Shown here one piece after another: positions 28,631 to 47,916 of a stretch of 50,468 nt of DNA. Position 1 is the stretch's first letter, and every line of letters starts with the position of its first letter. This DNA comes from Mogibacterium sp. GTDB taxonomy: Bacteria > Bacillota > Clostridia > Peptostreptococcales > Anaerovoracaceae. Position numbers and translations under genes: made by a program. Under the pieces are notes generated by a model. That model saw only the letters and a program-made list of their open reading frames with translations, searched no databases and was not told where the DNA came from. The DNA is taken from contig JAKSSP010000009.1 in assembly GCA_024403035.1 (NCBI GenBank), forward strand, positions 1 through 50,468. Direction: 5' to 3'.

Positions 28631-28682
28631 ACATAAACGATCAAACCAATAACACTCATCTGAGTTTCACGGAGGTACAGAA

Positions 28683-29654: not shown

Positions 29655-29696
29655 CATCAACAATGACTGGACTGGGGAACACAAAAAGGGTAAAAG

Positions 29697-30584
29697 ATGG
29701 ACTTAAGAACTCTGCAGTATTTCGTTACTGTCGCGGAAGAACTCAATATAACAAGGGCTGCTGAAAAGCTTCACATGAGCCAGCCGCCTCTCAGCGCACA
29801 GATAAAGAGTCTTGAGAGAGAGCTTGATACAGAGCTGTTTATCAGAGGAAAGAGAAGGCTCAAACTTACTGAGTCAGGACAGCTTCTGTACAGGCGGGCC
29901 AAGGAGATCATCAAACTCACCGACAAGACAAAGTCAGAGATCCTTTCGATGGGAGAGGGCATGCGCGGAACCATAGCTCTGGGGCTGGTGGAAGGTATGG
30001 CCCCTGACATTGCGGCAGAATGGTTTGCCGGGTTCAGGGTCATACATCCGAATGTCAGATTCAGGATACTGGACGGAAGTACCGACGACCTACTCGAGAA
30101 GCTCAGAACGGGACTGATAAGCCTGGCAGTGATAACATCTCCGTGTGACAATTCACTCCTGCACAGTTTCCATGTCGGGGAAGAGAAGATGGCAGCGCTT
30201 ATGAGCAGGCAGCATCCGCTTGCCCAGAACAACGGACGTAAGGTCCGGGTCGCTGATCTTGTCGGGGAAAATCTGATAGTTCCGAGCAGAAAAGCCCTTA
30301 TCGAGACTATCTACAGGTGGTTCCGGGAGATAAATGCCGAGCCGCAGATAGTATGCGAGATGGACAGCTATCTTGACGCGGCCGCTCTCGCGGGCAGACA
30401 GGTCGGGATAAGCATATATCCCAGGACAGCGTATATCCCAAATGATTCTCTTGTGTTCAAAGAGATCGCCGGTGAGGACAAAAAGATGGAATACCTGTTT
30501 GTATGGCGCAAAGGCCATCCGCTTCCTGCCATCGAGGAGAGGTTCATAGACTTTGTTAAGGCAAGTGTGGCCGGGAGTCGATAA
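29697..30584 (+). CDS. LysR-family transcriptional regulator
   Basis: A 295-residue LysR-type regulator. The winged helix-turn-helix is at residues 3-60 (LRTLQYFVTVAEELNITRAAEKLHMSQPPLSAQIKSLERELDTELF in the usual form), and the effector-binding domain fills about 90-290. GAAAAGGG precedes the ATG. It sits between guaA and glnN on the same strand, with a terminator-like hairpin after it and about 190 bases before glnN. LysR proteins usually act on adjacent promoters, so control of glnN or guaBA is plausible but unproven. The inducer is unknown. Confidence 0.92.
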   Translation: MDLRTLQYFVTVAEELNITRAAEKLHMSQPPLSAQIKSLERELDTELFIRGKRRLKLTESGQLLYRRAKEIIKLTDKTKSEILSMGEGMRGTIALGLVEGMAPDIAAEWFAGFRVIHPNVRFRILDGSTDDLLEKLRTGLISLAVITSPCDNSLLHSFHVGEEKMAALMSRQHPLAQNNGRKVRVADLVGENLIVPSRKALIETIYRWFREINAEPQIVCEMDSYLDAAALAGRQVGISIYPRTAYIPNDSLVFKEIAGEDKKMEYLFVWRKGHPLPAIEERFIDFVKASVAGSR

Positions 30585-30610
30585 AGAAAAGTGAGACACG
30601 CTTATGCATG

Positions 30611-30639
30611 AAAGGATCCGTATATCCGGGCCCTTTTTT
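30611..30639 (+). terminator. Probable terminator after the LysR gene
   Basis: AAAGGATCC and the GG-GCCC-TTTTTT segment form an imperfect hairpin with a run of six T after it. The stem has a mismatch, so strength is uncertain. The following 130 bases up to glnN are A+T rich and hold no gene. Confidence 0.5.
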
Positions 30640-30778
30640 CATACGCAAAAAATATGATAACTCCAACAATATATATATTTCAGTTTGAAAAACAACAAGG
30701 TTATTTTTAAAGAAATTATTTTATTCCGGCAATTAATAAATATTACAGGAGATTCGCATCAGGAAAGGAGGGTCGACC

Positions 30779-32869
30779 ATGAGTACTGTATCTGACTATT
30801 TCGGTTCAATGGTATTCGACGACAAAATCATGAGATCAATGCTGCCAGCTGATATCTACCGTTCACTCCGCAGAACGATAAACCAGGGCAACCCTCTGAA
30901 TCCGGATGTAGCGAATGCTGTTGCCCAGGCCATGAAAAACTGGGCGGTTTCCAAGGGAGCCACACATTATACACACTGGTTCCAGCCACTCAACGGGGTG
31001 ACCGCGGAAAAGCATGACAGCTTTATCCAGGCATCTCCCGATGGAGGGGTGATCATGGATTTCTCCGGAAAGGAACTCATCAAGGGTGAGCCGGACGCAT
31101 CCTCTTTTCCATCAGGCGGTCTTAGAGCAACGTTTGAGGCAAGGGGCTATACGGCCTGGGATCCGACCTCCTTTGCTTTCATAAAAGGCAAGACACTATG
31201 CATTCCTACGGCATTCTGCTCGTATAGCGGGGAAGCGATGGATGAAAAGACGTCCCTGCTGAGATCGATGGACGCGCTCAACAGACAGGCGATCAGGGTG
31301 CTCCGCATCCTGGGCAATGATACTGTCAGGAGAGTACACGCAGTCGTAGGAGTTGAGCAGGAATACTTCCTTGTACCGCGCGAGCTTTATGAACAGAGAC
31401 CGGATCTGAGATTCACCGGCAGGACACTGTTCGGGATCATGCCGCCGAAAGGGCAGGAGCTCGACGATCACTATTTCGGCCCTATCAAGCCGGAAATATC
31501 GAGGTTCATGGAAGAGCTGAATGAAGAACTTTGGAAACTCGGAGTGTATGCCAAGACGGAACATAACGAGGTCGCACCTTCGCAGCACGAACTTGCTTGC
31601 ATATATACAAAGGTCAATGTGACCACCGACCAGAACCAGCTGGTCATGGAAATGATAAAAAAAGTTGCAGAGCGGCACGGATTCGTCGCGCTTCTTCACG
31701 AGAAGCCTTTTGAGGGTGTCAATGGCAGCGGTAAGCACAATAACTGGTCGCTGTCGACCGATATGGGTATCAATCTGATGTCGCCCGGGGATACGCCTCA
31801 CGATAACGAGCAGTTCCTGCTGTTTCTCTGTTCGGTCATAAGGGCTGTGGATAAGTTTCAGGACCTTCTCAGGATATCCGTCGCATCAGCAAGTAACGAT
31901 CACAGACTGGGAGCAAATGAAGCACCGCCTGCCGTGATTTCGATTTTCCTTGGTGATGAACTCACAGAGGTCCTTAGATCCATTGAAGAGGATGCACCTT
32001 ATGAGAAGAGCGGAGATGTATTGATGAAACTGGGGACGGTTGTGCTCCCGGGGTTCAGCAGAGACAACACTGACAGAAACAGGACATCGCCGTTCGCCTT
32101 TACAGGCAACAAGTTTGAGTTCAGGATGCCGGGTTCGATGAGCAGCATCGCGTTCCCGAATGTCATAATAAACAGCTCGGTCGCGGATTCGCTTGAATAC
32201 TTCGCAGACAGACTTGAAGGGTCTGATGATGTAAACCGTGACATTTACTCATTGGTGAGAGAAACACTGAAGGAACACGGAAGGATCGTATTCAACGGGG
32301 ATGGCTACAGGGATGAATGGGTCAGTGAAGCGCAGAAACGCGGCTTGTCTAACTACAAGACAACAGCGGACTGTGTGCCGCACCTTCTGGATGAAAAGAA
32401 CGTGGAGATGCTCCTGCATCAGGAGGTTTTTTCAAGATCAGAGCTTGAGTCGAGATGCGAGATAATGCTTGAAACATACTGCAAGACTATATGCATAGAG
32501 GCGAGGACCATGAGATCCATGGCAGTGAAGAGGATCGCCCCGGCAATAGAGAGGTACACTGCCGAACTTGCACGGAATACGGCAGACAAGCGGAAAGTGT
32601 TTCCTGACCTCAGCTGCACCTTTGAAGAAAAGACTGTGGGACTGCTGTCCCGTCAGACTGACAGAATATACGAGGATGTAGCCGCGATGCAGGAAGTGCT
32701 CGATGATCTGAGCGGAACTGACCCCTGCTCTTATTCAAAGATCATCAGAGACAGACTGCTGCCTGCGATGGAGCAGCTGAGATATGACAGCGATATCGCG
32801 GAGGCAGCGACATCCAAGACTTACTGGCCTCTTCCTAACTACGGACTCTTGCTGTTCGGAGAGAAGTAA
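30779..32869 (+). CDS. glnN: Glutamine synthetase type III
   Basis: Makes glutamine from glutamate, ammonia and ATP. At 696 residues, with the GSIII-specific N terminus (FGSMVFDDKIMRSMLP) and C-terminal helical extension, it is clearly the type III (GlnN) enzyme of Bacteroides and Clostridia, not GlnA. Key blocks are THWFQPLNGVTAEKHDSFI, GVEQEYFLV, TEHNEVAPSQHELA and GSGKHNNWSLSTD, which contribute to the metal, glutamate and ammonia sites. AGGAAAGGAGGG precedes the ATG. asnB begins 13 bases after its stop. This type of enzyme is normally induced when nitrogen is limiting; the upstream gene is a LysR regulator. Confidence 0.96.
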   Translation: MSTVSDYFGSMVFDDKIMRSMLPADIYRSLRRTINQGNPLNPDVANAVAQAMKNWAVSKGATHYTHWFQPLNGVTAEKHDSFIQASPDGGVIMDFSGKELIKGEPDASSFPSGGLRATFEARGYTAWDPTSFAFIKGKTLCIPTAFCSYSGEAMDEKTSLLRSMDALNRQAIRVLRILGNDTVRRVHAVVGVEQEYFLVPRELYEQRPDLRFTGRTLFGIMPPKGQELDDHYFGPIKPEISRFMEELNEELWKLGVYAKTEHNEVAPSQHELACIYTKVNVTTDQNQLVMEMIKKVAERHGFVALLHEKPFEGVNGSGKHNNWSLSTDMGINLMSPGDTPHDNEQFLLFLCSVIRAVDKFQDLLRISVASASNDHRLGANEAPPAVISIFLGDELTEVLRSIEEDAPYEKSGDVLMKLGTVVLPGFSRDNTDRNRTSPFAFTGNKFEFRMPGSMSSIAFPNVIINSSVADSLEYFADRLEGSDDVNRDIYSLVRETLKEHGRIVFNGDGYRDEWVSEAQKRGLSNYKTTADCVPHLLDEKNVEMLLHQEVFSRSELESRCEIMLETYCKTICIEARTMRSMAVKRIAPAIERYTAELARNTADKRKVFPDLSCTFEEKTVGLLSRQTDRIYEDVAAMQEVLDDLSGTDPCSYSKIIRDRLLPAMEQLRYDSDIAEAATSKTYWPLPNYGLLLFGEK

Positions 32870-32882
32870 GGAGGTAGAAAAA

Positions 32883-34520
32883 ATGTGTACGATAATGACG
32901 ACTACCGGAGGCGCAGCCTCCGTTTACGAATTTGAGAAAGCTTTTTCACTTACAAAATACAGAGGCCCTGATGATACAAGAATCATCGATATCGAACGGA
33001 TGACGGAGATAACCGGCACATTCAGCGAGATAGATATTACACCTCCATGCCGAAAGGGGATCATGGGCTTCCACCGTCTGTCCATCATGGGACTCACTCC
33101 GGAAGGCATGCAGCCGTTCATCCGTAAAGGATGCGCTGTTGTATGCAACGGAGAACTGTACGGCTTTGAAAAAATACAAAAGGAGCTGGAACTGAAAGGT
33201 TATTCGTTCAAATCCGGCTCGGACTGCGAACTTCTGCTGCCGCTTTACTTTGAGTACGGCACGGAAATGTTCAAAGAGTTGGACGCCGAATTCGCCTGTG
33301 TCATCTATGATGACAGGACGGATGAATTCATAGCGGCAAGAGATCCGATCGGCATCAGACCGCTTTACTACGGATATGACATGGAAGGCTGCATTGCTTT
33401 CGCGAGCGAGCCTAAGAGTTTGCTTGGCATTTGTGAAAAAGTGATGCCTTTCCCACCGGGGTACTACTGGCGCAAAGGGGAGTTCACAGAATACTGTGAT
33501 CTGACAGAGACCGATGAATATGTAAGCGGGGATCTTGACGAGATCTGCGGGAACATAAAGATGCTGCTGACAGAAGGGGTCAGAAAGCGTCTTGTGGCTG
33601 ATGCCAAGGTCGGGTTTCTGCTTTCGGGCGGACTCGACTCTTCGCTGGTGTGCTCGATCGCCGCAGCGGAAACTGATGCCCCTATAAAGACCTTTGCCAT
33701 TGGCATGGATAAGGATGCCATTGACCTCAAGTACGCAAAAATAGTCGCTGATCATATCGGGAGCGATCACACCGAGGTCATCATAAACAGGCAGGATGTG
33801 CTTGACGCGCTTGAAGAAGTGGTATATCTGCTCGGCACCTATGATATCACTACTATAAGGGCATCGATAGGGATGCATCTTGTCTGCAAGGCCATCCATG
33901 AACAGACTGACATACGCGTCATCCTGACCGGAGAGATATCTGATGAACTGTTCGGATATAAGTATACGGACTTTGCGCCGTCGGCAGAGGCTTTCCAGGA
34001 TGAAGCCGCAAAGCGTGTGAGAGAACTGCATATGTATGATGTCCTTCGAGCTGACCGCTGTATTTCCGGAAACAGCCTGGAGGGCAGAGTACCTTTCGGT
34101 GACCTAGAGTTCGTGCGCTATGTCATGTCCATAGATCCGGAGATGAAGCTGAACAGATACGGCAAAGGAAAGTACCTTCTCAGAAAAGCATTTGAAGGGG
34201 ATTATCTTCCGGACGAGATACTCTGGAGGGAAAAAGCGGCCTTTTCGGATGCGGTTGGGCATTCCATGGTGGAAGACCTTAAGGAATATGCCGCAACGCA
34301 GTATTCAGATGAGGAGTTTGAGGAAGGCCGCAAAAGGTATGACCATGCGAGGCCTTTCACAAAGGAGTCGCTGCTGTTCAGGGACATATTCGAAAAGTAC
34401 TATCCGGGACAGGCTGAAATGGTCGTAGACTTCTGGATGCCTAACAAGGAATGGGAAGGCTGTGACGTCGATGATCCGTCAGCCAGGGTGCTTTCAAACT
34501 ACGGAGACAGCGGAAAATAA
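32883..34520 (+). CDS. asnB: Asparagine synthetase (glutamine-hydrolysing), AsnB type
   Basis: Turns aspartate, glutamine and ATP into asparagine. The N-terminal class II glutamine amidotransferase begins MCTIM, so Cys2 becomes the N-terminal nucleophile; GFHRLSIMG and CNGELYG are its other motifs. The synthetase domain has the PP-loop SGGLDSS at residues 248-254. At 545 residues it resembles E. coli AsnB in size. The ATG follows AAGGAGG by eight bases; a longer reading would run into glnN. It shares an operon with glnN and pyrG: one enzyme makes glutamine and two consume it. Confidence 0.95.
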   Translation: MCTIMTTTGGAASVYEFEKAFSLTKYRGPDDTRIIDIERMTEITGTFSEIDITPPCRKGIMGFHRLSIMGLTPEGMQPFIRKGCAVVCNGELYGFEKIQKELELKGYSFKSGSDCELLLPLYFEYGTEMFKELDAEFACVIYDDRTDEFIAARDPIGIRPLYYGYDMEGCIAFASEPKSLLGICEKVMPFPPGYYWRKGEFTEYCDLTETDEYVSGDLDEICGNIKMLLTEGVRKRLVADAKVGFLLSGGLDSSLVCSIAAAETDAPIKTFAIGMDKDAIDLKYAKIVADHIGSDHTEVIINRQDVLDALEEVVYLLGTYDITTIRASIGMHLVCKAIHEQTDIRVILTGEISDELFGYKYTDFAPSAEAFQDEAAKRVRELHMYDVLRADRCISGNSLEGRVPFGDLEFVRYVMSIDPEMKLNRYGKGKYLLRKAFEGDYLPDEILWREKAAFSDAVGHSMVEDLKEYAATQYSDEEFEEGRKRYDHARPFTKESLLFRDIFEKYYPGQAEMVVDFWMPNKEWEGCDVDDPSARVLSNYGDSGK

Positions 34521-36173
<1,653 letters not shown>

Positions 36174-36220
36174 TTAAAAATCGCTAAAGGCGGTTTTGAT
36201 TATAGAATTCGAATAGTGAT

Positions 36221-36466
36221 TTAAAACCGTAACGCTTTGAAAATACGAGCGTTGCGGCTTTTTATTTGTGCTGCTGATGCTCTTTTGCGATAAAGGGCTG
36301 AAGAGATCAAAGCGGTCAGCGGTATTGTCATGATCATCCCTATGTTGGATGAAAGACCGCTTATAGTTTCAAGCGCGATAAAGGCTGTTGAGAGCAGGTG
36401 CCTGAAAGTGAGGCCTCGCGCATACATGGATATAGTCAGTGTGAATTCGACCTCGACGATAGAAGG
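36221..36466 (-). pseudogene. Relic of a YibE/F-like membrane protein
   Basis: On the minus strand, an open stretch contains ALETISGLSSNIGMIMTIPLTALISSAL, which resembles the C-terminal end of YibE/F family membrane proteins (typically a VxxIxGSIGLVLTIPITA-type run). A stop codon (TGA at 36469-36467) lies directly upstream in the same frame, and no full-length gene precedes it. It overlaps the pyrG terminator. I read it as a 3' remnant of a lost gene. The family match is by eye and could be wrong. Confidence 0.4.
36227..36263 (+). terminator. Terminator after pyrG
   Basis: CCGTAACGCT (36227-36236) and AGCGTTGCGG (36248-36257) form a 10-bp stem with one G-U pair, followed by CTTTTTATTT. It closes the glnN-asnB-pyrG unit. 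Confidence 0.85.
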
Positions 36467-36645
36467 TCAATAGTTGTAATAAATGCATCAATTATCCTTT
36501 GGATTCCAAAGGCTATAAGGTAAAATATAAGGAAATATAAAAATTGAGATAAATAAGATATAAATAGGAAAACACAGAGACGATTCAGTACAGATAATAA
36601 AGTATTGGTTTCGCGGTAATGATATAAAACCGGGAGAAACTAAGA

Positions 36646-36801
36646 TGATATTCATGAAGAAACAACAACAGTTGAATATCAAAAGGCAGAAGTGGAGATA
36701 GGCCTTTTTCCTTACTGTTATTCTTGCTTTTGCAGTTTTTGCGTCGCCTGCTCATGTACACGCCACCTATTATGATGAAACGTCCGGTCACTGGTATATG
36801 A
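36646..36801 (+). pseudogene. Relic of a small secreted protein
   Basis: ATG 36646, with GGGAG upstream, begins MIFMKKQQQLNIKRQKWR and meets TAG at 36700-36702. The same frame then reads AFFLTVILAFAVFASPAHVHA, a convincing signal peptide core and cleavage region. Soon after, the sense seems to shift by one base (YYDE continues as TSGHWYMTGT in another frame). A stop plus a frameshift inside a signal-peptide gene suggests decay. The rest of the 760-base gap between pyrG and the giant gene is A+T rich and shows no other gene. Confidence 0.4.
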
Positions 36802-36936
36802 CCGGGACAGCAGAAGCGGTATTTGAAGGGAATATAGCGATTTGACACGAAGCTTTGCACAACACTCCGACAGATGTATTATTAAAGGCAAAACATACGA
36901 AGAAACTGACAGGAACTGCAAAAGGAGATCTGAAAC

Positions 36937-39900
36937 ATGGAAAACCGCGAACGGCTGCAGCAGGAACTTATAAAATCCTATTGTGACAGAAGCTGGCTGA
37001 GACTGGCTGATATCAGCAGTGACGAAATAAAGAAAGCCGCACCGGTATTTGCTGAGGCAGCCGGCGGTATTATTGAGCGTGCAGATAAAGACGGGAGGAT
37101 CGATTCAGCGGATATCCTGGAAGTATGGAGCAAAACTGCGAGTATCTGCTTTGGTGATGCTGAATGCGGAGAGCCGGCGGATGGATGGCTCATGCACACA
37201 TATGCCTGGCTGAGGAACATACTGTTTCCACATATAGAAGCACCTGCGGACAGTGAGAAATATGAGGTGAAGAGACTCAGCCTGCTGAGATTCATGCACG
37301 GTGTATACGAGTATGAAAGAAAGTGCTGCCGGTTCGAACCGACAAGGGATATACCTCTCCTCAGCGACAAAGAGATACTCGATAACGGATTCACGCGCGA
37401 GTATCTGAAAATGAAAGATCTGGCCGGCGATCTCTATGTTTATGAGTTCATGCGCATAGGAGCCGAGATCACGCCTTTCAATACGCTGGGACATATCAGC
37501 GGTGTGCATTATGTTGCCATGTATGTGGCAAAGCAGCTTCACAGATCAGGCATCCCTGTCGATCTCGGACTCATTTCGGCAGCCGCAGCTACCCATGATA
37601 TCGGCAAATACGGGTGCCGTAAGCACGAGGAGAGACGGGTACCATACCTGCATTATTACTATACAGACCGCTGTCTTGCGCAGTTCGGATTAAACAAGAT
37701 AGCTCATATCGCCGCCAATCACTCCACATGGGATCTTGAGCTCGACAATCTGTCTGTCGAGGCACTGTTGCTTATCTATGCAGATTTCAGGACCAAGAGC
37801 ACCCGCGAGGACGGAAAGGAGATCATCCATTTCTACAGCCTTGCAGAGGCGTTCGAAATAATACTCAGCAAGCTCGATAACGTGGATGAGGCCAAGCGGC
37901 ACAGATACGAGAGGGTATACGGAAAACTCAGGGACTTCGAAGACTACATGATCGAGCACGGAGTGAGCACAGATATTGAGGATCTTGCTGACGATTATCC
38001 GTCTGAGTATGAAGGCGCGGTCACCCCAGTTAAGCGTGAAGCAGCATTTCTCCCGGAAGATGAGGTAGTAAGCCAGCTTTCATACAGAGCAATAGATCAT
38101 AACATAAGGGTCATGAGCAGATTCGGTGACGACAGGCAGTTCGGAAGCCTTCTTGAATCAGCGCGCAGTGAGCCCGATTTCAAAAATGTACGCACATATA
38201 TAAAGATCCTCAGGAGATATTCCACATATATGACGGATGAGCAGAAAGGAATGACCCTGAGATTCATGTATGAGATGCTGGCCCATCATGAGAGCGACAT
38301 ACGCGAGCATTCAGCTGATGCAATGGGATACATAGTGGCCAGATACCGCAAAGAGTACAAGAAGGAACTGCCGGCTGACATACCTGCTCCTGATGATAAT
38401 GTGACCAATCTGAGCATGTTCAGGCAGTATATCGAATTGCTGCTCGATCCGGACCATAAGTATACAGACATACATCGCATGAGGATCTCTGCCAGCACGG
38501 ATTTCTTTGTTCGCTCGGTAGTGGAAAACTGCAGAGCATCCTGCAGGCATAAATATCTGGACATCCTTTCAGCTTATCTCACACTCGATAACTGTGATGA
38601 AGAGAGGCTGACAGTCCTGCTGGTGACAGCCCTGAGCGTAGCCGTTGAAAACCGTACTCCGGATTTTTCTGAAGCTGTCATAGAATTCTGCGGCAAGGCC
38701 GCGGGCGGGTTCGGAAATGCTGCCGATCTCTTGACTCTGGAGGTTCAGAGGGCATACGGCGTTCTTGGCGATAAGGAATATGAGTCCGAAAAAAGAAGAC
38801 TGCTGGGTATAGGCAAAGCTGCGCTTACAGACGAGCAGCTGTCATCGCTGTTCCTTGATGACCTCAAGTACCACATACCATGGGTCGTCAAGGCCGCAAA
38901 CATTTCAGTTCTGAGGCAGACTGCTGAACGCACTTCCGGCCATGGCACCCTGATGCAGATAGCGACTCACTATTCCAATATGATAAAAGTAAGCGAAACT
39001 GTCACGGTACGTAAAGCAGCCGGCGAGGCGCTTCTGGAGATCGTCAGGAAAATGAGCCCCGATCAGATAAACGAGCTCGTTATCGAGCTGTTCAAGGGCC
39101 TTGAGATAGAGGATTATCAGTTTTCGGGCTATATCCCGGACTATCTCGGAGTCATCATGCTGTGCCTGCCGCCCGAAGAACTTGATGAGACCATAGGAGA
39201 GTTTGAGCGGATATTTGATTCGGGAAGCGAGAGAACTGCCGCCGCTGCTCTTGAGACCATCGCTGTTCTGACCGAGAATTACGAAACGTATGGTTTTGAA
39301 GAAGACATAAAGGCATGGGCCGGAAGGAGAGACCGTATACTCGGTTTACTGGTGAAGGGATTTGCATATTACAAAAAGAGTATAGCCAGAGAAGCTGTCA
39401 GGACTGCCTCTGAGCACCTCTTTGCCAGCAGCATGCTTTCTCCTGAAGAAAAGGCTGATATGGCAGCCGTTTGCTTCAAAAGGATGCTGACGTTCCTTCC
39501 GGAGGCAGCGGGAGCCGATGAGCTGGATTTCTACAACAATGCCTCGGCTTTGGGAGACATATACGGCTTCATATCGGAATACAGGGCAGAATTCGGGGAA
39601 TTCGAGACCGGACCTGAAAAGCCCGCGGCATTCTTCCCGGGCACTTTTGACCCGTTCAGCCTCGGACATAAGGCGATAGCGACAACGATACGCGACATGG
39701 GCTTCGACGTTTATCTGGCTATTGATGAATTCTCCTGGTCCAAGAAGACGCTGCCTCACATGGTTCGGAGGAACATCCTTGCCATGTCCGCTGCTGACGA
39801 AGCGGGGTTATACATATTCCCTGATGGTATTTCTGTAAACATAGCAAATCCTGAAGACCTCGGACATCTCAGAGAGGTCTTCGGCGGCAGAGAGATATAT

Positions 39901-41811
39901 ATAGCAGTCGGATCGGATGTAGTAAAGAATGCATCTGCATATAAGGCAAAACCTCAGAAGAACTCGATCCATTCTTTCAACCATATCATCTTCGCCCGCG
40001 AGGCCGGGAACCTTGATGCTGACGGAGAGGGTTTCCCGGTAACAGCTGATGTGCTTCAGCTTCAGCTGGATAAATACTATGAGGATATCAGCTCTACCAA
40101 GATACGTGAAAACGTCGATCTGGGCATTGACGTATCGAGCCTCGTGGATCCAGTCGTACAGAATTACATATATGATATGAACCTGTATGTCAGGGAGCCT
40201 GCTGATAAATATGTGATGCAGGCAAGAGAAATGATAATAAGGGCTTACGAACAGGGCGAGATGGTCTCGCCTGAGTACTTCAGATCTGCGCTCGGAGACC
40301 GAGGCGATTCGTCTGAAGAGCTGGTAAATTATCTGTCGCGGCCTGATCTGAGAAAAGTGATCATAGAAACAGCTGATCACAGACTGTCAGCTGCAGCCGG
40401 GGCAAGAAGACTTAAGACGAGCGATCTGCTTGAAGAATTCGGAGATATCGAGATCGCATCTTACATAAGGAGCCATGCAGGCGGAGAGATAGCCATTATA
40501 GGGGCGTTCTATGTTGCAGGAGGAGATAAGGTATCCAATATACATCAGATACTGCTGACAGAGCTTCTTACTGCACTCGTGGCAAAGGACTACACATATG
40601 CTGTATTTCACCCGGTATGCGGCATGGCAGAAGATCCGCATGCGGTGCCTACGATGGTGAACCAGGGATTCATCAACATTGCTTCCGGCAGTGAAAAACC
40701 GGTATATGCAGTTGACATGAGGAATCCTATAACCATATTCCGTGATGCAGATACTGTTGTCAAAGCGCCTTTCAATAAGAACCCAAGAGTGCAGAGGGCT
40801 TTTGATAAGGCTCACAACAACCTTCTCAGCACATTCAGAGAAATATACCCGGGCAAGCTGCTGCTTTCATTCAACACCAGCGCTGTATACAGCAAAATAT
40901 TAGACCTTGTAGTAGAAGAGAATGGTGTTTCGACAAAGCCTGATCCGGAAAGAAGACGCGGACCTTACATGGCTGTACCATTCGGTAAAGCTCTGTCAGA
41001 CATCGTGGTGCCAAATACTGTTACAAAAGCCATGAGGACGGAAAAGTATTTCCGCAACGATCTCAGAGGTTTCGACGTAAGGGAATCCATAGGATACCAG
41101 ACACTGGATGACCAGGCGCGCACTATAAAGTCATTCGCGAGGCCGGTCATCCTGATAGATGATCTGCTTCACTCGGGACAGAGACTGAATAAGATCGATC
41201 CCATATTCAGGAGACACGGGGTCGATGTGCACAAGATCATTGTCGGACTGCTTACCGGCAGGGGCTTCGACAGCATGCGCCTGGCCGTAAGGGAAGTAAG
41301 GGGGGCATATTTCATTCCGTCAATAAGCATGTGGCTGAATGAGCGCGACTGCTATCCGTTCATCGGCGGCGACAGCATAGATAACCCTGAGAACGACAGA
41401 GATAACAATCAGAGCGGTAGCGGATACAGATCTGCGGGAGCTGCGGCTGCAGGCTGGTGTGCCATGAAGAGAAGGCCGGATGCACCGGCTAAGGAAGGAA
41501 ATGCTTCTGTTAATCTTATTCTTCCTTATTCGGGATTCAGCTTCATCGGAGAGGGCGACCCCGAGAATATTTACAAGTATTCTGTCACATGCCTCGAGAA
41601 TGCTGCAGATATACTGCATGTTCTCGAACAGGAATATCAGAAGACTTTTGAAAAGAAACTGACCATAAGGAGGCTTGGCGCAGTCATCACCAATCCGCGC
41701 AGACCTGTGCTTGGCTTTGGACTTCAGTATGACGATCATATAGCGCCGTCAGTATACATAGAAAACGAACTGCGAAGAACAAAGAGAATGTTCCTGTTCA
41801 AGACAAGATGA
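36937..41811 (+). CDS. Giant multidomain protein: HD domain, helical repeats, NadD-like adenylyltransferase, phosphoribosyltransferase
   Basis: A single intact frame of 1624 residues, with AAAAGGAG before its ATG. In order: an N-terminal region; an HD-type hydrolase core (His186 or His191, HD at 220-221, His257/His262, Asp283); about 500 residues of helical repeat character (380-885); a cytidylyltransferase-fold domain with GTFDPFSLGH at 902-911 and ISSTKIR at 1051-1057, which are NadD/NMN-adenylyltransferase hallmarks, although Ser908 stands where NadD has the first His of HxGH; a possible acetyltransferase-like segment (about 1165-1265); and a phosphoribosyltransferase PRPP loop VILIDDLLHSGQR at 1404-1416. 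A low-complexity Asn/Ser/Gly stretch follows near 1485-1515. NadD beside the HD enzyme YqeK is a known pairing; fusion of both with a PRPP site is not one I know. Two oxidoreductase-like genes follow closely. Confidence 0.85.
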   Translation: MENRERLQQELIKSYCDRSWLRLADISSDEIKKAAPVFAEAAGGIIERADKDGRIDSADILEVWSKTASICFGDAECGEPADGWLMHTYAWLRNILFPHIEAPADSEKYEVKRLSLLRFMHGVYEYERKCCRFEPTRDIPLLSDKEILDNGFTREYLKMKDLAGDLYVYEFMRIGAEITPFNTLGHISGVHYVAMYVAKQLHRSGIPVDLGLISAAAATHDIGKYGCRKHEERRVPYLHYYYTDRCLAQFGLNKIAHIAANHSTWDLELDNLSVEALLLIYADFRTKSTREDGKEIIHFYSLAEAFEIILSKLDNVDEAKRHRYERVYGKLRDFEDYMIEHGVSTDIEDLADDYPSEYEGAVTPVKREAAFLPEDEVVSQLSYRAIDHNIRVMSRFGDDRQFGSLLESARSEPDFKNVRTYIKILRRYSTYMTDEQKGMTLRFMYEMLAHHESDIREHSADAMGYIVARYRKEYKKELPADIPAPDDNVTNLSMFRQYIELLLDPDHKYTDIHRMRISASTDFFVRSVVENCRASCRHKYLDILSAYLTLDNCDEERLTVLLVTALSVAVENRTPDFSEAVIEFCGKAAGGFGNAADLLTLEVQRAYGVLGDKEYESEKRRLLGIGKAALTDEQLSSLFLDDLKYHIPWVVKAANISVLRQTAERTSGHGTLMQIATHYSNMIKVSETVTVRKAAGEALLEIVRKMSPDQINELVIELFKGLEIEDYQFSGYIPDYLGVIMLCLPPEELDETIGEFERIFDSGSERTAAAALETIAVLTENYETYGFEEDIKAWAGRRDRILGLLVKGFAYYKKSIAREAVRTASEHLFASSMLSPEEKADMAAVCFKRMLTFLPEAAGADELDFYNNASALGDIYGFISEYRAEFGEFETGPEKPAAFFPGTFDPFSLGHKAIATTIRDMGFDVYLAIDEFSWSKKTLPHMVRRNILAMSAADEAGLYIFPDGISVNIANPEDLGHLREVFGGREIYIAVGSDVVKNASAYKAKPQKNSIHSFNHIIFAREAGNLDADGEGFPVTADVLQLQLDKYYEDISSTKIRENVDLGIDVSSLVDPVVQNYIYDMNLYVREPADKYVMQAREMIIRAYEQGEMVSPEYFRSALGDRGDSSEELVNYLSRPDLRKVIIETADHRLSAAAGARRLKTSDLLEEFGDIEIASYIRSHAGGEIAIIGAFYVAGGDKVSNIHQILLTELLTALVAKDYTYAVFHPVCGMAEDPHAVPTMVNQGFINIASGSEKPVYAVDMRNPITIFRDADTVVKAPFNKNPRVQRAFDKAHNNLLSTFREIYPGKLLLSFNTSAVYSKILDLVVEENGVSTKPDPERRRGPYMAVPFGKALSDIVVPNTVTKAMRTEKYFRNDLRGFDVRESIGYQTLDDQARTIKSFARPVILIDDLLHSGQRLNKIDPIFRRHGVDVHKIIVGLLTGRGFDSMRLAVREVRGAYFIPSISMWLNERDCYPFIGGDSIDNPENDRDNNQSGSGYRSAGAAAAGWCAMKRRPDAPAKEGNASVNLILPYSGFSFIGEGDPENIYKYSVTCLENAADILHVLEQEYQKTFEKKLTIRRLGAVITNPRRPVLGFGLQYDDHIAPSVYIENELRRTKRMFLFKTR

Positions 41812-41833
41812 CGCGCACGAGAGGAACGGTGAA

Positions 41834-42823
41834 ATGAGATACATACACGAACTTATAGAAGATGCCGGCATTAAATACATACTGCCGCTGAACGGATGCC
41901 CGGTCAGACTGCATGAAAAAAACAGAGTGAATATTATTGCACTGGGCGATGTAGGCACTACCATGCTGACAGGTCTCAGGCTGCTCGGCAGCGATCTGAT
42001 CCGGGAGATGGGAATAATCGACCTGAACAGGAATAATCTTGAGCGGCTTGAGATGGAGATCAACCAGATCGGATATCCGTTCGGCATGAAGGATCTGCCG
42101 CCTGTTAGCATAGTGAATGAGGATGCTCTGTTCGCCTGCGATATAGTGATTTTCTGTGCAAGCAAGGGCGTTCCTGCGGTGCAGTCAGGAGAGACCGATG
42201 TGCGTATGGCGCAGCTTGAAGCCAACAGGGAGATAATAGCGCATTATGCCGGACTTGCACGGAAAGCGGAATTCAGGGGAATGGTCGCCATAGTCAGCGA
42301 TCCTGTTGATAACCTTGCAGCAGCTTTTCTTGATGCTTCGGGACTGGAGCCGTGGCAGATACAAGGCTACGGACTTGGCGTCATGAACAAAAGAGCTGAG
42401 TATCATGCCGCAAAACTGGCTTCCGAGGGTAATGGAAAAGCCGCTCTGTACATGAGCGAGGGCAGAGCCTTTGGTCCTCATGGCAAGGACCTGGTCATTG
42501 CCAACAGCATAGAGCATTATGACGATGATGTATCAAGGCTGCTCACCGATCTTACAGTCGACTCGAACGTAAGAGTAAGGGAACTGGGATTCAAACCATA
42601 CATAGCACCTGCGATGTCATCCGCAGCCATATCGATACTCCTGACTCTCAGCGGAGACTGGCACTATGGATCCTTATATATCGGTACAAGAAAGAAAGGT
42701 GCCTTCCTCGGAGTCAAAAACCGGCTTACCCGGAGAGGATTCGAGTATGAAGACCTGCCATTGCCGGAACCGCTGTATGAGAGAATACTCAATGCTTATA
42801 AGGGCTTGTGTGGTATAAGGTGA
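41834..42823 (+). CDS. Lactate/malate dehydrogenase-like protein
   Basis: A 329-residue protein with a Rossmann fold of the lactate/malate dehydrogenase type. IIALGDVGTTMLTGLRLLG (G38-D-V-G41) is the dinucleotide loop and GIIDLN the acidic end of strand 2. VAIVSDPVDN (156-160) stands for the NPVD motif, and His216 in FGPHGKDLVI fits the catalytic histidine. A 30-residue N-terminal extension and a diverged substrate loop set it apart from true LDH or MDH, so its substrate may differ. GAGGAACGG lies before the ATG. It starts 22 bases after the giant gene and precedes the flavoprotein by 32 bases. Confidence 0.75.
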   Translation: MRYIHELIEDAGIKYILPLNGCPVRLHEKNRVNIIALGDVGTTMLTGLRLLGSDLIREMGIIDLNRNNLERLEMEINQIGYPFGMKDLPPVSIVNEDALFACDIVIFCASKGVPAVQSGETDVRMAQLEANREIIAHYAGLARKAEFRGMVAIVSDPVDNLAAAFLDASGLEPWQIQGYGLGVMNKRAEYHAAKLASEGNGKAALYMSEGRAFGPHGKDLVIANSIEHYDDDVSRLLTDLTVDSNVRVRELGFKPYIAPAMSSAAISILLTLSGDWHYGSLYIGTRKKGAFLGVKNRLTRRGFEYEDLPLPEPLYERILNAYKGLCGIR

Positions 42824-42855
42824 CAGTGATCGATCAGGGATAAGGGGCAGAGAGA

Positions 42856-43938
42856 ATGAAAAAACTTGTTGTGATACGGCCGCTTAATGAACTGCAGAGC
42901 AGTGGGAGAATGGAAAGAATACTTGCGGATCTGTTTGGCATGCTTGAGAACGAAGGAGTCATAATAGAAACAGTAATAAGAGCAGCTGAACTGGAAACCA
43001 TGAACATTAAAAACAGGCATGTTCTGTTTGCTGTGAGCCTGACAGAAGCCGGCATCAACATGGAGTACTACCGGATGCTGGAATACTTCAGATCCAGTCC
43101 TGACTGCCTTGAAGGATCTATAGGCGGGATCATCGTAGACGGACAAGGTGAGCTGTTTACAAAAGCGCTTGCGAGGAGACTGGCTTTCTCGGCAAATGCC
43201 GCGGGCTGCATATTCCCCGGCAAGCCGCTTGTTGAAGCTACGGGTGATCTCGGAAACTTCCACGTTCTGTCGGGCGTAAGGGGAGTAGAACCGATGACTG
43301 TTTATGTGCAGCAGGTCGAGGACCTTGTACGGAGAGTGATCGAATCACAGATCCGTGATGAGATTTCTGAAAAGAGAAATCTGAATATACTGGCCGTCCA
43401 TGCGAGTTCAAGAAAGACATCCAATACACTTCTACTGTGGGACAAGGTCAGAAAGAATCTTGATGACAAGGCAGAGGTCAGAGAGATATCACTCAGGGAC
43501 GGCGCCATAAAGGAATGCATAGGATGCCGGTATGAGGACTGCCTGCATTACGGAGAGCAGGGCAGGTGTTTCTACGGCGGAATAATCACTGAACAGGTGT
43601 ATCCTGCCATTCTCGACTGCGATGTGATCGTCATGATATGCCCGAATTACAATGATGCGCTGAATGCCAATTTTACGGCTTTCATAAACAGGCTCACTGC
43701 TCTCTTCAGGGTGCATGATTTCAGCAAAAAAAGGGTATATGCCATAGTTGTTTCAGGATACAGCGGAGGAGATCTGGTATCGGAACAGATCATCGGTGCG
43801 CTGAACTTCAACAAGGGATTCATCCTGCCGGGAAGATTCGCGATGGTCGAGACGGCAAATGATCCATTCAGCATACTGAAAGTTCCGGATATTGACAGCA
43901 GGGCCGGATCGTTTGCGGAGGGAATATTATGCAATTGA
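42856..43938 (+). CDS. NADPH-dependent FMN reductase-like flavoprotein with cysteine motif
   Basis: A 360-residue protein of two parts. The first about 170 residues have no recognised fold. From residue 175 it reads NILAVHASSRKTSNTLLLWDKV, the FMN-phosphate loop of the flavodoxin/FMN-reductase family (GSPRKxSNT type). Cys221, Cys224, Cys229 and Cys238 form a C-x2-C-x4-C-x8-C motif resembling that of iron-sulfur flavoproteins. VMICPNYNDALNANFTAFINRL matches the helix that binds the isoalloxazine ring. TAAGGGGCAGAG precedes the ATG. As third gene after the giant protein, it suggests the set carries out a redox step. Confidence 0.75.
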   Translation: MKKLVVIRPLNELQSSGRMERILADLFGMLENEGVIIETVIRAAELETMNIKNRHVLFAVSLTEAGINMEYYRMLEYFRSSPDCLEGSIGGIIVDGQGELFTKALARRLAFSANAAGCIFPGKPLVEATGDLGNFHVLSGVRGVEPMTVYVQQVEDLVRRVIESQIRDEISEKRNLNILAVHASSRKTSNTLLLWDKVRKNLDDKAEVREISLRDGAIKECIGCRYEDCLHYGEQGRCFYGGIITEQVYPAILDCDVIVMICPNYNDALNANFTAFINRLTALFRVHDFSKKRVYAIVVSGYSGGDLVSEQIIGALNFNKGFILPGRFAMVETANDPFSILKVPDIDSRAGSFAEGILCN

Positions 43939-43953
43939 TTTAGCAGGCTTTTT

Positions 43954-44235
43954 ATGTGGGATATCTCGGATAAGCCTGTAAGTTGGTCAGAGCTTGGGAA
44001 AAATTTTATGCGGGAAATAGAGCGTATGGCATTATTAAAAACAATAGATAATCATTGGGTTGAGCATATAGATGCCATGGAGCAGCTAGAGGAAGGAATC
44101 GGACTTCGCAGTATCGGTCAACAGAATCCTGCTGATGCATACGCACAGGAAGGAATTGAGATGTTTGAAGAAATGATAAATGATATCAAAAAAGAGACCA
44201 TTTCGATTTGTTATAATGCCGGATTGAGGCATTAA
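43954..44235 (+). pseudogene. Chimeric scrap: guaA 3' end joined to secA 3' end
   Basis: The 93-codon frame begins MWDISDKPVS, matching the end of the split GMP synthase (MWDFSDKPVS at 29606-29635), with 22 of 26 bases identical at the start. It then reads MREIERMALLKTIDNHWVEHIDAMEQLEEGIGLRSIGQ and FEEMINDIKKET, plainly the C-terminal helical part of SecA. Neither gene is complete and no other SecA sequence is near. No ribosome site is visible. The 3' end of guaA is a known integration site for genomic islands, so this may be an attachment-site scar. The junction marks a drop in G+C. Confidence 0.75.
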
Positions 44236-44304
44236 GAATTTGAAACCTTATCTCAACAATAAAAGGATGCAATAATATTCCCCAAAACTTCAGATGTCAT
44301 TGAT

Positions 44305-44333
44305 TTGACTTTGATCGCAAGAATAGATATAAT
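44305..44333 (+). promoter_or_regulatory. abiE promoter
   Basis: TTGACT (44305-44310) and a perfect TATAAT (44328-44333) with a 17-base spacer, 57 bases upstream of abiEi. Confidence 0.82.
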
Positions 44334-44365
44334 GTATGCGTATTTAATTTACTAATTACGCATAC
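44334..44365 (+). promoter_or_regulatory. abiE operator (inverted repeat)
   Basis: GTATGCGTA (44334-44342) and TACGCATAC (44357-44365) are perfect 9-base arms 14 bases apart, directly after the -10 hexamer and across the expected start of transcription. AbiEi antitoxins are known to bind inverted repeats in their own promoter and repress it. Confidence 0.75.
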
Positions 44366-44389
44366 AATATATCAAGCGGAAAGATTGCT

Positions 44390-45037
44390 ATGACCTATAT
44401 GGATTTCGTCGAAAACAGAATACAGGACTACGATTTCGGTGCTCCTGTCTATACAAGCAGTTTGGCGCAGAGCATGGCGGAGGAATTCCAACTTTCTCAA
44501 AAGGAAGCGTCTGCAGCTGTTGCCGTTGCTGTGAAGCGCCTGATGGACGGGAAGGGGATGAGCGAGCTCCGTTTTTTTCAAAAGGGTATTTATTACCGGG
44601 CGAAGATGACACCATTCGGAGAAACCGGTATCAATAAGGATGCTCTGATTGCGGATAAATATCTTGCAGGGGACAATGGATATGAAACCGGGCTTGCACT
44701 TCTACACCGAATGGGATTGACTACACAGATTCCTGCGCAGAGAGTTTTTGCTACTAATAAAGCTGCAAACTGTATTCGTGCAGACAAAGCTTTGGGTATC
44801 TTAATTTGCCCTCCAAAGGTCAAAATCAGCGCAAAGAATAAGCGCTATTTACAGATGCTTGACGCGATCGACACAATAGGAAAGGCCCCTGTGGATGCAG
44901 AAAACCCCTATCGTCTGATTGCAAGTCATATCCAAAATATCGGATTGGACTACGGCGAGCTTTTATCCATTGCCGGGAAATACTACAATAGAAATACCGT
45001 GTTTACACTCGCTCAAATCGCTGGAGAAAGGAACTGA
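44390..45037 (+). CDS. abiEi: AbiEi-family antitoxin
   Basis: A 215-residue protein of the DUF6088/AbiEi type, antitoxin of type IV toxin-antitoxin systems and transcriptional repressor. The N-terminal 80 residues look like a winged helix (AEEFQLSQKEASAAVAVAVKRLMDGKGMSELRFFQKGIYYRAK), and the rest resembles the AbiEi C-terminal domain (YLAGDNGYETGLALLHRMGLTTQIP). AAGATTGCT precedes the ATG, only a weak site. Base composition and codon use are more A+T rich than the backbone, pointing to transfer. It lies one base from the toxin gene, whose frame is interrupted. Confidence 0.82.
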   Translation: MTYMDFVENRIQDYDFGAPVYTSSLAQSMAEEFQLSQKEASAAVAVAVKRLMDGKGMSELRFFQKGIYYRAKMTPFGETGINKDALIADKYLAGDNGYETGLALLHRMGLTTQIPAQRVFATNKAANCIRADKALGILICPPKVKISAKNKRYLQMLDAIDTIGKAPVDAENPYRLIASHIQNIGLDYGELLSIAGKYYNRNTVFTLAQIAGERN

Positions 45038-45038
45038 A

Positions 45039-46121
45039 ATGAACCTGCATTTGGATAAGGACGCTTTTCGTGTTCTAATTGAGGATATTCATATTAAGAC
45101 AGGATACCGCACCGATGTTCTAGAAAAGGATTACTATGTGGCACTTATTTTGAGGGAACTGGCAGATAAGCAATCCGCAGGTCTTCCTGCCTATTTCAAG
45201 GGAGGTACGGCACTGTATAAAGCACTCAAGACGACGAATCGTTTTTCGGAGGATATTGACCTTTCGGTGGATACCCGTGAATGTAGCAGAACACAGAATG
45301 ATAAGCGGCTGGAAGGCGCAACAAAGAAGTATGCTGCATTGTAGCGAGATTCCTCTATGGGAAAGACAAACCGTAGCGAGGTTATTTCTGTATATCGCTA
45401 TGATCCGTTGACTGACTATGATGCTGACGATGCCTTGCAACGTTTTGGGCTTTTGAAAATCGAAGCGACCTCATTCACCACCAGTGAACCTGTGGAGAGT
45501 TTGGAAATCGCACCTTTGCTCTATGACCTTGCAACAGAAGAACAAAAAACAATTCTGGAAACGCAATACGATGTCAGACCGTTTTCGGTTATGACGATTA
45601 CTATGGAGCGTGTCTTTATCGACAAGCTGTTTGCTGCGGAAAGCTATGTGCGGAAGTCAGAGGATTCGCACCGCGCATTTGAAGCTGCTAAGCACATTTA
45701 CGATCTTGCTGTGATTGAGCAGCATCCGAAGATTGTTGCTCTTGTCTTCGATACACAAAAGATGAAACAACTTTTAGACATTCGTATGACGGAGGAACAG
45801 GAGCGTCTGGATGGAATACCGGGTGTTATCCCCAATGAGTTCACATTTTTTATCGATGCTGCGAATTGTGCGGCTGTGCGAACTGCTTATGAAATCATGC
45901 AGCGGCAGTATGTGTTACGAGCATCAGACCGCATTACATTTGATGCTGCCTGTGAGAGCTTAAATCGGCTACAAGGGAGCCTGCTTCAAAATACGGCTTG
46001 GAAAAACTATGCACCGGAAAAGCAGAGTGTTCTTTCAAAGCTTCAGGATGCAAAAATACAACTTAACACTGTAACAGCTTCCAAGTCATTGAAGAAAAAC
46101 AGGGACGACCTGGAACGTTGA
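45039..46121 (+). pseudogene. abiEii: AbiEii-family nucleotidyltransferase toxin, interrupted by an in-frame stop
   Basis: The toxin of the AbiE pair, a nucleotidyltransferase-fold protein. The active-site motif is visible: FKGGTALYKAL (GG at 55-56) and SEDIDLSV (residues 70-77). After codon 101 a TAG at 45342-45344 stops the frame, yet the same frame runs on past it to 46121 with good toxin character (DDALQRFGLLKIEATSFTTSEP and ITMERVFIDKLFAAESYVRKS). It also offers an internal ATG at 45357. The gene therefore looks whole but for one nonsense codon. GAAAGGAACTGAA precedes the start. Other genes here use TAG as a real stop, so recoding is unlikely; sequencing error cannot be excluded. Confidence 0.8.
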
Positions 46122-46371: not shown

Positions 46372-47916
46372 ATGGCAGAGAACAGGATACTCATAGTGGA
46401 TTTTGGCGGACAGTACAATCAGCTGATCGCCAGAAGAGTGAGAGAATGTGGTGTTTATTCAGAGATAATGGGATATGAATCTATTGATCCGGACAGGATA
46501 CGCAGATTCGATCCAAAGGGCATCATCTTTACCGGCGGACCGCAGAGCGCATATGGCGAGAATGCTCCGTCAATAGATGACGGGATATTCGAGCTGGGCA
46601 TTCCGATTCTGGGTATCTGCTACGGGGCACAGCTTATGGCATACAGACTCGGAGGAAGAATAGAGTCTGCGCCTACCAGCGAATACGGACGCACTGAAGT
46701 TGTCGTAGACGGCAAGACCGGCATCCTGCGTTCTGCTGACGATGTCAATATATGCTGGATGAGCCACACGGATTACATCAGCGAGCCGCCGCAGGGCTTC
46801 ACTGTCACAGCTCGTACCGATGACTGCCCCGTAGCTGCCATGGAAGACCGTTCGAGAGGTTTCTATGCCGTGCAGTTCCATCCTGAAGTCGATCATACGG
46901 AGCACGGGGCTGAGTTCATAAGGGACTTCGTGCTTGATGTATGCGGGTGTGACCGTGACTGGCAGATGGATTCGTTTGCTGTGACGCAGATCGCCGCTAT
47001 CAGGGAAAAGGTCGGAGACGGAAAAGTTCTGCTCGCGCTGTCCGGAGGAGTTGACTCATCTGTGGTAGCGGCTTTGCTCGCAAAAGCAATCGGTCCTCAG
47101 CTTACCTGCGTATTCGTCGACCATGGCCTCATGAGAAAGAACGAAGCTGATGAAGTGTCCGCTATATTCGGAAAGGAAGGGCAGTTCGATCTCAATTTCG
47201 TAAGAGTAGATGCGGCTGAACGGTTCTATGCCGTACTCGCAGGAGTGACAGAGCCTGAGAAAAAGCGCAAGATCATCGGCGAAGAGTTCATCAGAGTATT
47301 CGAAGAGGAATCAAAGAAGATAGGTGCGGTCGATTTCCTGGCGCAGGGAACCATCTATCCGGATATCATTGAAAGCGGGCTCGGAAAGTCCGCGGTCATC
47401 AAGTCTCACCACAATGTGGGAGGTCTTCCTGACTACGTTGACTTCAAGGAAATAATCGAACCGCTGAGGATGCTGTTCAAGGATGAGGTAAGGCAGCTCG
47501 GGCGCGAGCTTGGTCTGCCGGAGTATCTTGTGAGCAGGCAGCCTTTCCCGGGACCGGGCCTCGGGGTCAGGATCATAGGAGACGTTACAGCCGAGAAGGT
47601 ACGCATCGTACAGGACGCAGACGCTATTTACAGAGAAGAAATAGACAGGGCAGGACTTGCCGGAGAGATCAGTCAGTACTATGCCGCTCTCACAAACATG
47701 CAGACGGTCGGAGTCATGGGAGACTTCAGGACATATGATCATGCCATAGCCTTGAGAGCAGTAATAACATCTGATTTCATGACGGCTACGGCTGCTGAGA
47801 TCCCATGGAATGTACTTCAGAGAGTTATGACAAGGATCGTCAATGAGGTCGATCACGTTAACAGAGTATTCTACGATCTCACCAGCAAACCGCCGGGAAC
47901 GGTAGAGATGGAGTAA
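46372..47916 (+). CDS. guaA: GMP synthase (glutamine-hydrolysing), full length
   Basis: The complete two-domain enzyme of 514 residues, which amidates XMP to GMP. The amidotransferase domain has Cys83 in GICYGAQLM and the His170/Glu172 pair in QFHPEVDH. The ATP pyrophosphatase part has SGGVDSS at residues 224-230, [11 protein letters not shown] and [12 protein letters not shown], and it ends [25 protein letters not shown] precedes the ATG. The 250 bases upstream hold no gene; just before the start, GCCTG/CAGGC (46322-46326 and 46342-46346) can form a small hairpin after a run of six A. It is the second GMP synthase in the window, and a decayed integrative element follows its 3' end. Confidence 0.96.

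Follow-up and report, generated by a model that had tools for sequence, protein, structure and literature searches.

What does a bacterial protein do that appears to carry, in one chain, an HD-type hydrolase site, a NadD-like nucleotidyltransferase domain and a phosphoribosyl pyrophosphate (PRPP) loop? The question is raised by a giant gene in a Mogibacterium sp. contig of 50,468 nucleotides (JAKSSP010000009.1, assembly GCA_024403035.1; this whole stretch is called the window below), which is followed by genes for a protein resembling lactate and malate dehydrogenases (LDH and MDH; the LDH-like protein) and for a flavoprotein. Sequence comparison shows three genuine, conserved genes that are inherited together and in most cases lie side by side. 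The giant recurs with this pair of redox-type proteins here and there among Clostridia and their relatives, which points to an undescribed nucleotide/cofactor system.

Three genes inherited as a unit

In the open reading frame (ORF) map of the window the giant gene is a single uninterrupted frame, the LDH-like gene starts 22 bases past it and the flavoprotein gene 32 bases further on (Table 1). The first-pass annotation, made from the sequence of the window, had described an intact 1624-residue frame with two close followers and had placed four motifs in the giant, HD at residues 220–221, GTFDPFSLGH at 902–911, ISSTKIR at 1051–1057 and VILIDDLLHSGQR at 1404–1416; the layout and all four motifs are as it gave them. 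The giant is conserved along its length in relatives with identities down to ~33% (26–28% in two divergent copies), and between the window and locus L001 the ratio of nonsynonymous to synonymous substitution (dN/dS) is 0.04–0.18 depending on region, with synonymous sites close to saturation. The lowest ratios are those of the C-terminal (0.037), NadD-like (0.038), PRPP (0.050) and HD (0.060) regions. Because of this length-wide conservation and low dN/dS, the giant is conserved above chance.

Distribution was followed in 293 genomes of the class, 299 of the phylum and 60 relatives (window genome included). At class-sample thresholds of E 1e-15 for the giant, 1e-10 for the LDH-like protein and 1e-20 for the flavoprotein, the giant was found in 23 of the 293 class genomes and the flavoprotein in the same 23; the LDH-like query matched 26, comprising the identical 23 carriers at E 8.6e-71 or better and three further matches from one genus (~1e-11) that resemble ordinary LDH/MDH. 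The chance of such overlap for one pair is ~1e-34 if independent draws are assumed, a figure that kinship raises. Since co-occurrence is exceptionless in this sample and the sites are under purifying selection, a specific function is likely. Among the 60 relatives, 39 passed E 1e-3 with the giant query, because ordinary NadD genes also match, and 25 gave strong giant matches; the LDH-like protein occurs in exactly these genomes, and 24 of the 25 also have the flavoprotein, the exception being G057, a 370-contig assembly. Two copies each of all three genes are present in G007 and G025. The genus of the window is represented by 36 genomes, its own among them and many of them incomplete; nine carry the giant, and each partner is found in those nine. 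Seven of the 299 phylum genomes matched the giant, six in frames of 1573–1667 residues, of which four lie outside the class, and one (G375) in a 203-residue frame covering the NadD-like region only.

Named bacterial genome contigs, when scanned, yielded 12 giant loci, of which 11 are substantial; their titles read Clostridiales, Mogibacterium, Lachnospiraceae, Eubacterium and Bacillota, and several come from the gut of sheep or goats. Locus L012 is a 74-residue giant piece, 97% identical, at the edge of a Bacteroidetes-labelled contig, perhaps through a binning error. At least one carrier, Acetoanaerobium noterae strain DSL2, is a named strain, with the three genes in a row, so that the question of function is open to a cultured organism. 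The A. noterae record L096 (NZ_CP154629.1, 2.63 Mb) is filed as a plasmid; its length suggests a chromosome.

The LDH-like gene lies directly downstream of the giant in 51 of the 59 loci with flanks and both partners follow in 50 (49 and 48, respectively, of the 57 distinct giant sequences). The neighbourhood survey proposed at first pass thus bears out co-occurrence, and a giant never neighbouring the other two, the contrary picture then considered, is not what was found. In 51 places the flavoprotein gene comes directly after the LDH-like gene, the two ORF calls overlapping by 4 bases in 18. Elsewhere, the contig stops after the LDH-like gene (L021) or within its apparent N-terminus, with the pair on another contig of the same genome (L082); the pair lies ~6 kb further down the same contig (L071, L081) or on a different contig (L090); or the giant is an extra copy in a genome that holds another giant and the pair (L034, L048, L080, L083). 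The pair is still present in the genomes of the non-adjacent cases G078, G175, G632 and G192. Mirror-tree correlations over 39 loci are 0.92, 0.87 and 0.80, to which shared ancestry contributes in part. Taken together, comparison of these loci supports the view that the three genes form one unit.

Extra copies offer natural experiments on the giant. In G058 the presumed functions are split between two copies: L048, which lies away from the pair, keeps the HD set, reads SANFDPMNLSH where the NadD motif would be and has no SSTxIR; L049, next to the pair, has the NadD motifs and neither the HD nor the middle region. Decay of the NadD site is seen in three of 46 copies, none of which adjoins the pair, namely L048, L083 (an extra copy with clearly decayed NadD motifs) and, in part, L080 (SST motif only, Arg kept), with HD intact in the latter two.

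Conserved sites of the giant protein

The NadD-like domain called at first pass is borne out by its sequence. Residues 899–1059 match Pfam CTP_transf_like (E 1e-7; 32.7 bits, above the cut-off of 21), and hhalign pairs the whole domain with the NadD-type protein of the same genome (probability 96.7, E 3.4e-10). F904, D905, P906, H911, E931 and W934 are kept in all 46 giant copies, as is the second His of HxGH, Y1002 and I1056 in 45 each and R1057 in 44; 43 of the 46 copies have the tabulated NadD-type motif residues, if Ser is accepted for Thr and, in one case, Arg at the first Ser. Y1002 is aligned opposite a Trp of the genome's own NadD-type protein, a residue with a stacking role. The cut-off of the NadD model TIGR00482 is not reached (37.4 against 112.45 bits). 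Genes reading as ordinary nadD, yqeK and rsfS sit elsewhere in the genome, and a role of the giant as housekeeping NadD was therefore rejected.

At the HD domain, Pfam HD falls just below its cut-off of 22 bits with the whole protein (E 3e-4, 21.5 bits) and just above it with the N-terminal half alone (22.6 bits). The six ligand-type residues (Table 1) are kept in all 44 copies that have the region (L011, a fragment, and L049, without HD domain, being left out), and their order, H, HD, H, H, D, matches that of the dinuclear YqeK site described in PMC8177086. An NCBIfam search with the giant gave 11 matches at E ≤1, none of them a YqeK model; its HD-type match was NF045665 (E 4.2e-7). The long helical-repeat region noted at first pass is HEAT-like only in part, Pfam HEAT being matched by 5 of the 12 members (E 1.1e-4 at best, and 0.11 for the window), and is a possible scaffold.

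Phosphoribosyl transfer, proposed from the PRPP loop, held up only in part. The loop has the paired acids and the glycine of PRPP loops, reads D-D-x-x-(H/N)-(K/S)-G-x-R in most copies and is conserved (D1408 in 46, D1409 in 42, G1414 and R1416 in 45 each, of 46), and 16 of the 17 PDB matches of the region at E ≤5 are proteins of phosphoribosyltransferase fold, all weak (best E 0.043). On the other side, Pribosyltran (PF00156) stays far below its cut-off of 26.3 bits in the window giant (residues 1346–1436, E 0.036, 13.8–15.8 bits; matches at E ≤10 in 7 of 12 members, best E 1.5e-4), and hhalign against two PyrE-type proteins, though aligning the loop itself, gives probabilities <1% (E 0.11 and 0.072), near the control given below. 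In the middle region, LytR_C matched 3 of 29 members (best E 5.1e-6) and other Pfam families one or two members each, and the PDB search gave a single unrelated match (E 0.24). A GNAT domain had been suspected there by eye; Acetyltransf_1 matched 1 of 29 members (E 0.028), and the region was left unassigned.

Two redox-type partners

Family searches place both followers among the kinds first named, an LDH/MDH-like protein and a flavoprotein with four spaced cysteines. The former scores 34.2 bits with Ldh_1_N (PF00056; cut-off 27) and has 22 PDB matches at E ≤1e-6, the best (7e-11) to 4q3n, named MGS-M5, and the rest to proteins named LDH, MDH or hydroxyisocaproate dehydrogenase. R124, R187 and H216 are invariant in 28 sequences, and the window protein is without the N-terminal extension of ~95 residues common in relatives. 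When the catalytic Asp–His pair of LDH is mapped onto it, His216 is found to be kept and Met184 to stand in place of Asp; because of this Met, its redox chemistry is only putative. One LDH-like match (G027, contig C67, 9528–10516) lies in two pieces with one in-frame TGA, from decay or assembly error.

The flavoprotein scores 67.8 bits with FMN_red (PF03358; cut-off 24), a domain found in all 28 aligned sequences, and its cysteines C221, C224, C229 and C238, spaced CX2CX4CX8C in the window, are invariant in the same number, making a possible iron–sulfur (Fe–S) site. Its PDB search gave no match at E ≤1e-6.

Table 1. Features of the three-gene locus (positions in the window) and of the kinase gene at other loci
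Feature	Position	Strand	Details and basis
Giant multidomain protein	36937..41811	+	1624 residues; HD, HEAT-like, NadD-like, middle, PRPP-loop and C-terminal regions; homologues found
HD domain, residues 184–283	37486..37785	+	Pfam HD; H186, H220, D221, H239, H262, D283
Long helical region, residues 380–885, partly HEAT-like, possible scaffold	38074..39591	+	Pfam HEAT
NadD-like nucleotidyltransferase domain, residues 892–1092	39610..40212	+	Pfam, NCBIfam, hhalign, motif counts
Middle region, residues 1092–1275	40210..40761	+	Pfam and PDB searches
PRPP-loop region, residues 1275–1482, putative type I phosphoribosyltransferase fold	40759..41382	+	Pfam, PDB, hhalign
PRPP-type loop VILIDDLLHSGQR, residues 1404–1416	41146..41184	+	Motif position, conservation
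Linker, ~residues 1487–1516	41395..41484	+	Missing in most relatives (alignment)
C-terminal region, residues 1520–1624, conserved	41494..41808	+	Alignment; dN/dS
LDH/MDH-like protein	41834..42823	+	329 residues; Pfam, PDB, alignment
Flavoprotein-type protein	42856..43938	+	360 residues; FMN_red at residues 177–334; Pfam
Four cysteines C221, C224, C229, C238, possible Fe–S site	43516..43569	+	Invariant 28/28
APH-family kinase	L034:5539-6471; L080:11905-12840; L083:6020-6946; L097:5847-6773		

Proposed function and alternatives

We suggest, at somewhat short of an even chance, that the three proteins together make, edit and use a metabolite of nucleotide type, most probably an adenine dinucleotide resembling nicotinamide adenine dinucleotide (NAD). 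The PRPP-loop region would make or sense a phosphoribosylated precursor, the NadD-like site would join the precursor mononucleotide to adenosine monophosphate (AMP) from adenosine triphosphate (ATP), the dinuclear-type HD site would hydrolyse pyrophosphate-linked products for editing or recycling, and the HEAT-like region would hold the sites together. The LDH-like protein, which keeps its dinucleotide-binding motif and has a changed active site, would use or modify the product, as would the four-cysteine FMN_red protein. The combination is most simply read as two opposed sites on a common scaffold, one making and the other breaking a pyrophosphate-linked nucleotide that the two redox-type partners need. 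Action of an HD site on NadD products has a precedent, the nearest described logic: PMC9426524 reports that in a NadD fusion the YqeK domain attacks nicotinate adenine dinucleotide and analogues. The first-pass annotation had also proposed a nucleotide/cofactor fusion with two oxidoreductases; of this proposal the single unit and the NadD-like domain agree with our data, the HD domain has the YqeK-type ligand set, and phosphoribosyl transfer stands only partially. In a more specific version, which we consider unlikely, the giant would join to AMP a mononucleotide with a different base, giving an NAD-like dinucleotide cofactor not described before, edit it with its HD site and supply it to the dedicated pair, a kinase feeding in the mononucleotide in some genomes.

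Several observations weigh against a system that makes, edits and uses such a metabolite. The first His of HxGH is replaced in all 46 copies (Ser 36, Thr 9, Asn 1). Lys or Ser, and Arg, are usual in the PRPP loop instead of Thr/Ser, the typical residues at those positions, and the PyrE-type hhalign scores are little better than that of an unrelated control (E 0.52). The known substrates of type I phosphoribosyltransferases are purines and pyrimidines, not nicotinate, so that an NAD-like product would need another base. At the HD site, hhalign to the genome's own YqeK-type protein aligns the HD columns with a probability of 23 (E 8.8e-4), and likeness to solved HD proteins is weak (two PDB matches at E ≤0.1, best 0.037). 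Met184 of the LDH-like protein, at the catalytic Asp position expected from the PDB alignment, is invariant in 28 sequences. The link between NadD site and pair is not absolute, because the extra copy L034 keeps both HD and NadD motifs intact away from the pair. Finally, a wider operon was rejected: among listed gene clusters in at least three loci, the largest beyond the three genes spans six, and no other neighbour is common enough to name a pathway.

Other readings of the same sites have to be set beside this one. Were the HD site to cleave and the NadD-like site to rebuild faulty or damaged dinucleotides, with the partners reversing redox damage to nicotinamide or flavin cofactors, the unit would serve cofactor or nucleotide repair; this would suit both the proofreading of NAD synthesis reported for the NadD–YqeK fusion (PMC9426524) and the three copies, lying away from the pair, in which HD is kept while the NadD motifs decay. 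Yet the need for repair would be general and the system occurs in 23 of 293 class genomes only, and genes reading as ordinary nadD and yqeK are present in the same genome; we hold repair to be rather improbable. We are equally doubtful of a regulator of nucleotide or nitrogen status, whose enzyme-like sites would serve chiefly as sensors of PRPP, ATP or a dinucleotide, with the partners relaying redox state. Such a role would draw on the unusual Lys/Arg of the PRPP loop, the scaffold-like HEAT region, the glutamine-amidotransferase, glutamate-synthase-like or pyrimidine-type genes beside the unit in some lineages and a kinase inside an apparent pyrimidine operon in G078, but catalytic-type residues are kept in nearly all 46 copies and nitrogen or pyrimidine neighbours occur in few lineages only.

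We regard it as very improbable that the unit is a conflict (defence-like) or second-messenger system, in which a signalling dinucleotide would be both produced and degraded. The maker–breaker pair of sites in one chain and the patchy spread (9 of 36 genus genomes, own included, many assemblies incomplete) are what such a system might present. Against it, PADLOC-DB 2.0.0 gave no family at E ≤1 for any of the three proteins, on which ground a known anti-phage system was dropped; residues 876–1624 of the giant had no match in a phage collection at E ≤1e-6, on which ground phage origin was dropped as well; and the identified neighbours are mostly housekeeping genes, except for an AbiE-type pair downstream in the window.

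Kinase gene and other neighbours

An APH-family kinase gene adjoins the giant at L034, L080 and L083. The L080 kinase as query matched 6 of the 293 class genomes at E 1e-15 (one its own), all six among the 23 giant carriers and the two weakest at 27% and 33% identity; the probability of this overlap is 1.2e-7 for independent draws, or 1.5e-6 without the query genome. In G078 the kinase lies between genes reading as pyrD and pyrE. The kinase may be an optional fourth component.

Upstream in the window (27113–36173) lie guaB, a lone C-terminal half of guaA, a LysR-type regulator, a type III glutamine synthetase, asnB and pyrG, and a complete guaA is found beyond the module (46372–47916). GlmS occurs at L006 and a glutamate-synthase-like gene at L071, and at L037, L043 and L047, from related lineages, pyrimidine-type genes adjoin the giant (our reading and BLAST). 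A nitrogen/pyrimidine theme is suggestive and was not taken as general, such neighbours occurring in few lineages only. Fifteen bases past the flavoprotein gene, a 93-residue frame (43954–44235) encodes only the end of SecA (SecA_SW, E 1e-26), a stranded remnant that may mark a rearrangement. It is followed at 44390–46121 by a DUF6088 gene (at cut-off) and an AbiEii-like nucleotidyltransferase gene, resembling an AbiE-type toxin–antitoxin pair. RNA regulation was set aside, since no Rfam match reached gathering scores in positions 30000–50468. Scans of 36100–44500 for promoter-like sites (13 against 13.7 in shuffles) and terminator-like sites (11 against 6.1, ten of the 11 within the three genes) were left unused.

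Comparison with known systems

Most assignable parts of the system belong, as far as sequence likeness tells, to known superfamilies. The LDH-like protein shares with LDH/MDH (PF00056) the Rossmann glycine motif (first Gly being Ala in the window), an Asp near the end of strand 2, conserved Arg residues and the His in GPHG, but has SDPVD for NPVD and an invariant Met at the catalytic Asp position, and scores 43.9 bits against a cut-off of 303.55 with the L-LDH model. With the flavin mononucleotide (FMN) reductases dependent on reduced NAD phosphate (PF03358) and the iron–sulfur flavoproteins, the flavoprotein has in common the FMN_red domain (28/28) and four invariant cysteines; it differs from them in an extra N-terminal part and in the cysteine spacing of the window. 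NadD (TIGR00482) and the giant have the GTFDPxxxxH, GSD and SSTxIR motifs in common and align by hhalign over the whole domain, whereas the giant has the first HxGH His replaced and E931 and W934 in all 46 copies. NF005519 (PRK07152), which we take to be the model of the mycoplasma NadD–YqeK fusion, does not reach its cut-off on the giant (28.6 against 315 bits) and covers the NadD part only.

That fusion (PMC9426524) resembles the giant in uniting, within a single polypeptide, a nucleotidyltransferase of NadD type and a domain of HD hydrolase type; in the giant the domain order is reversed, the NadD motif altered, and HEAT-like, middle, PRPP-loop and C-terminal regions are added together with the LDH-like and flavoprotein partners. 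Taken by itself, the giant could be called a distant variant on the NadD–YqeK idea. Literature searches, covering few subscription papers and with bioRxiv preprints outside their scope, returned among the matches listed no system with the giant's architecture and partners, in keeping with the earlier statement that no described system with this architecture was known. Should the three-gene unit make a new dinucleotide, biochemistry would gain a further cofactor; should it edit NAD-type nucleotides, the repair principle reported for the NadD–YqeK fusion (PMC9426524) would be extended.

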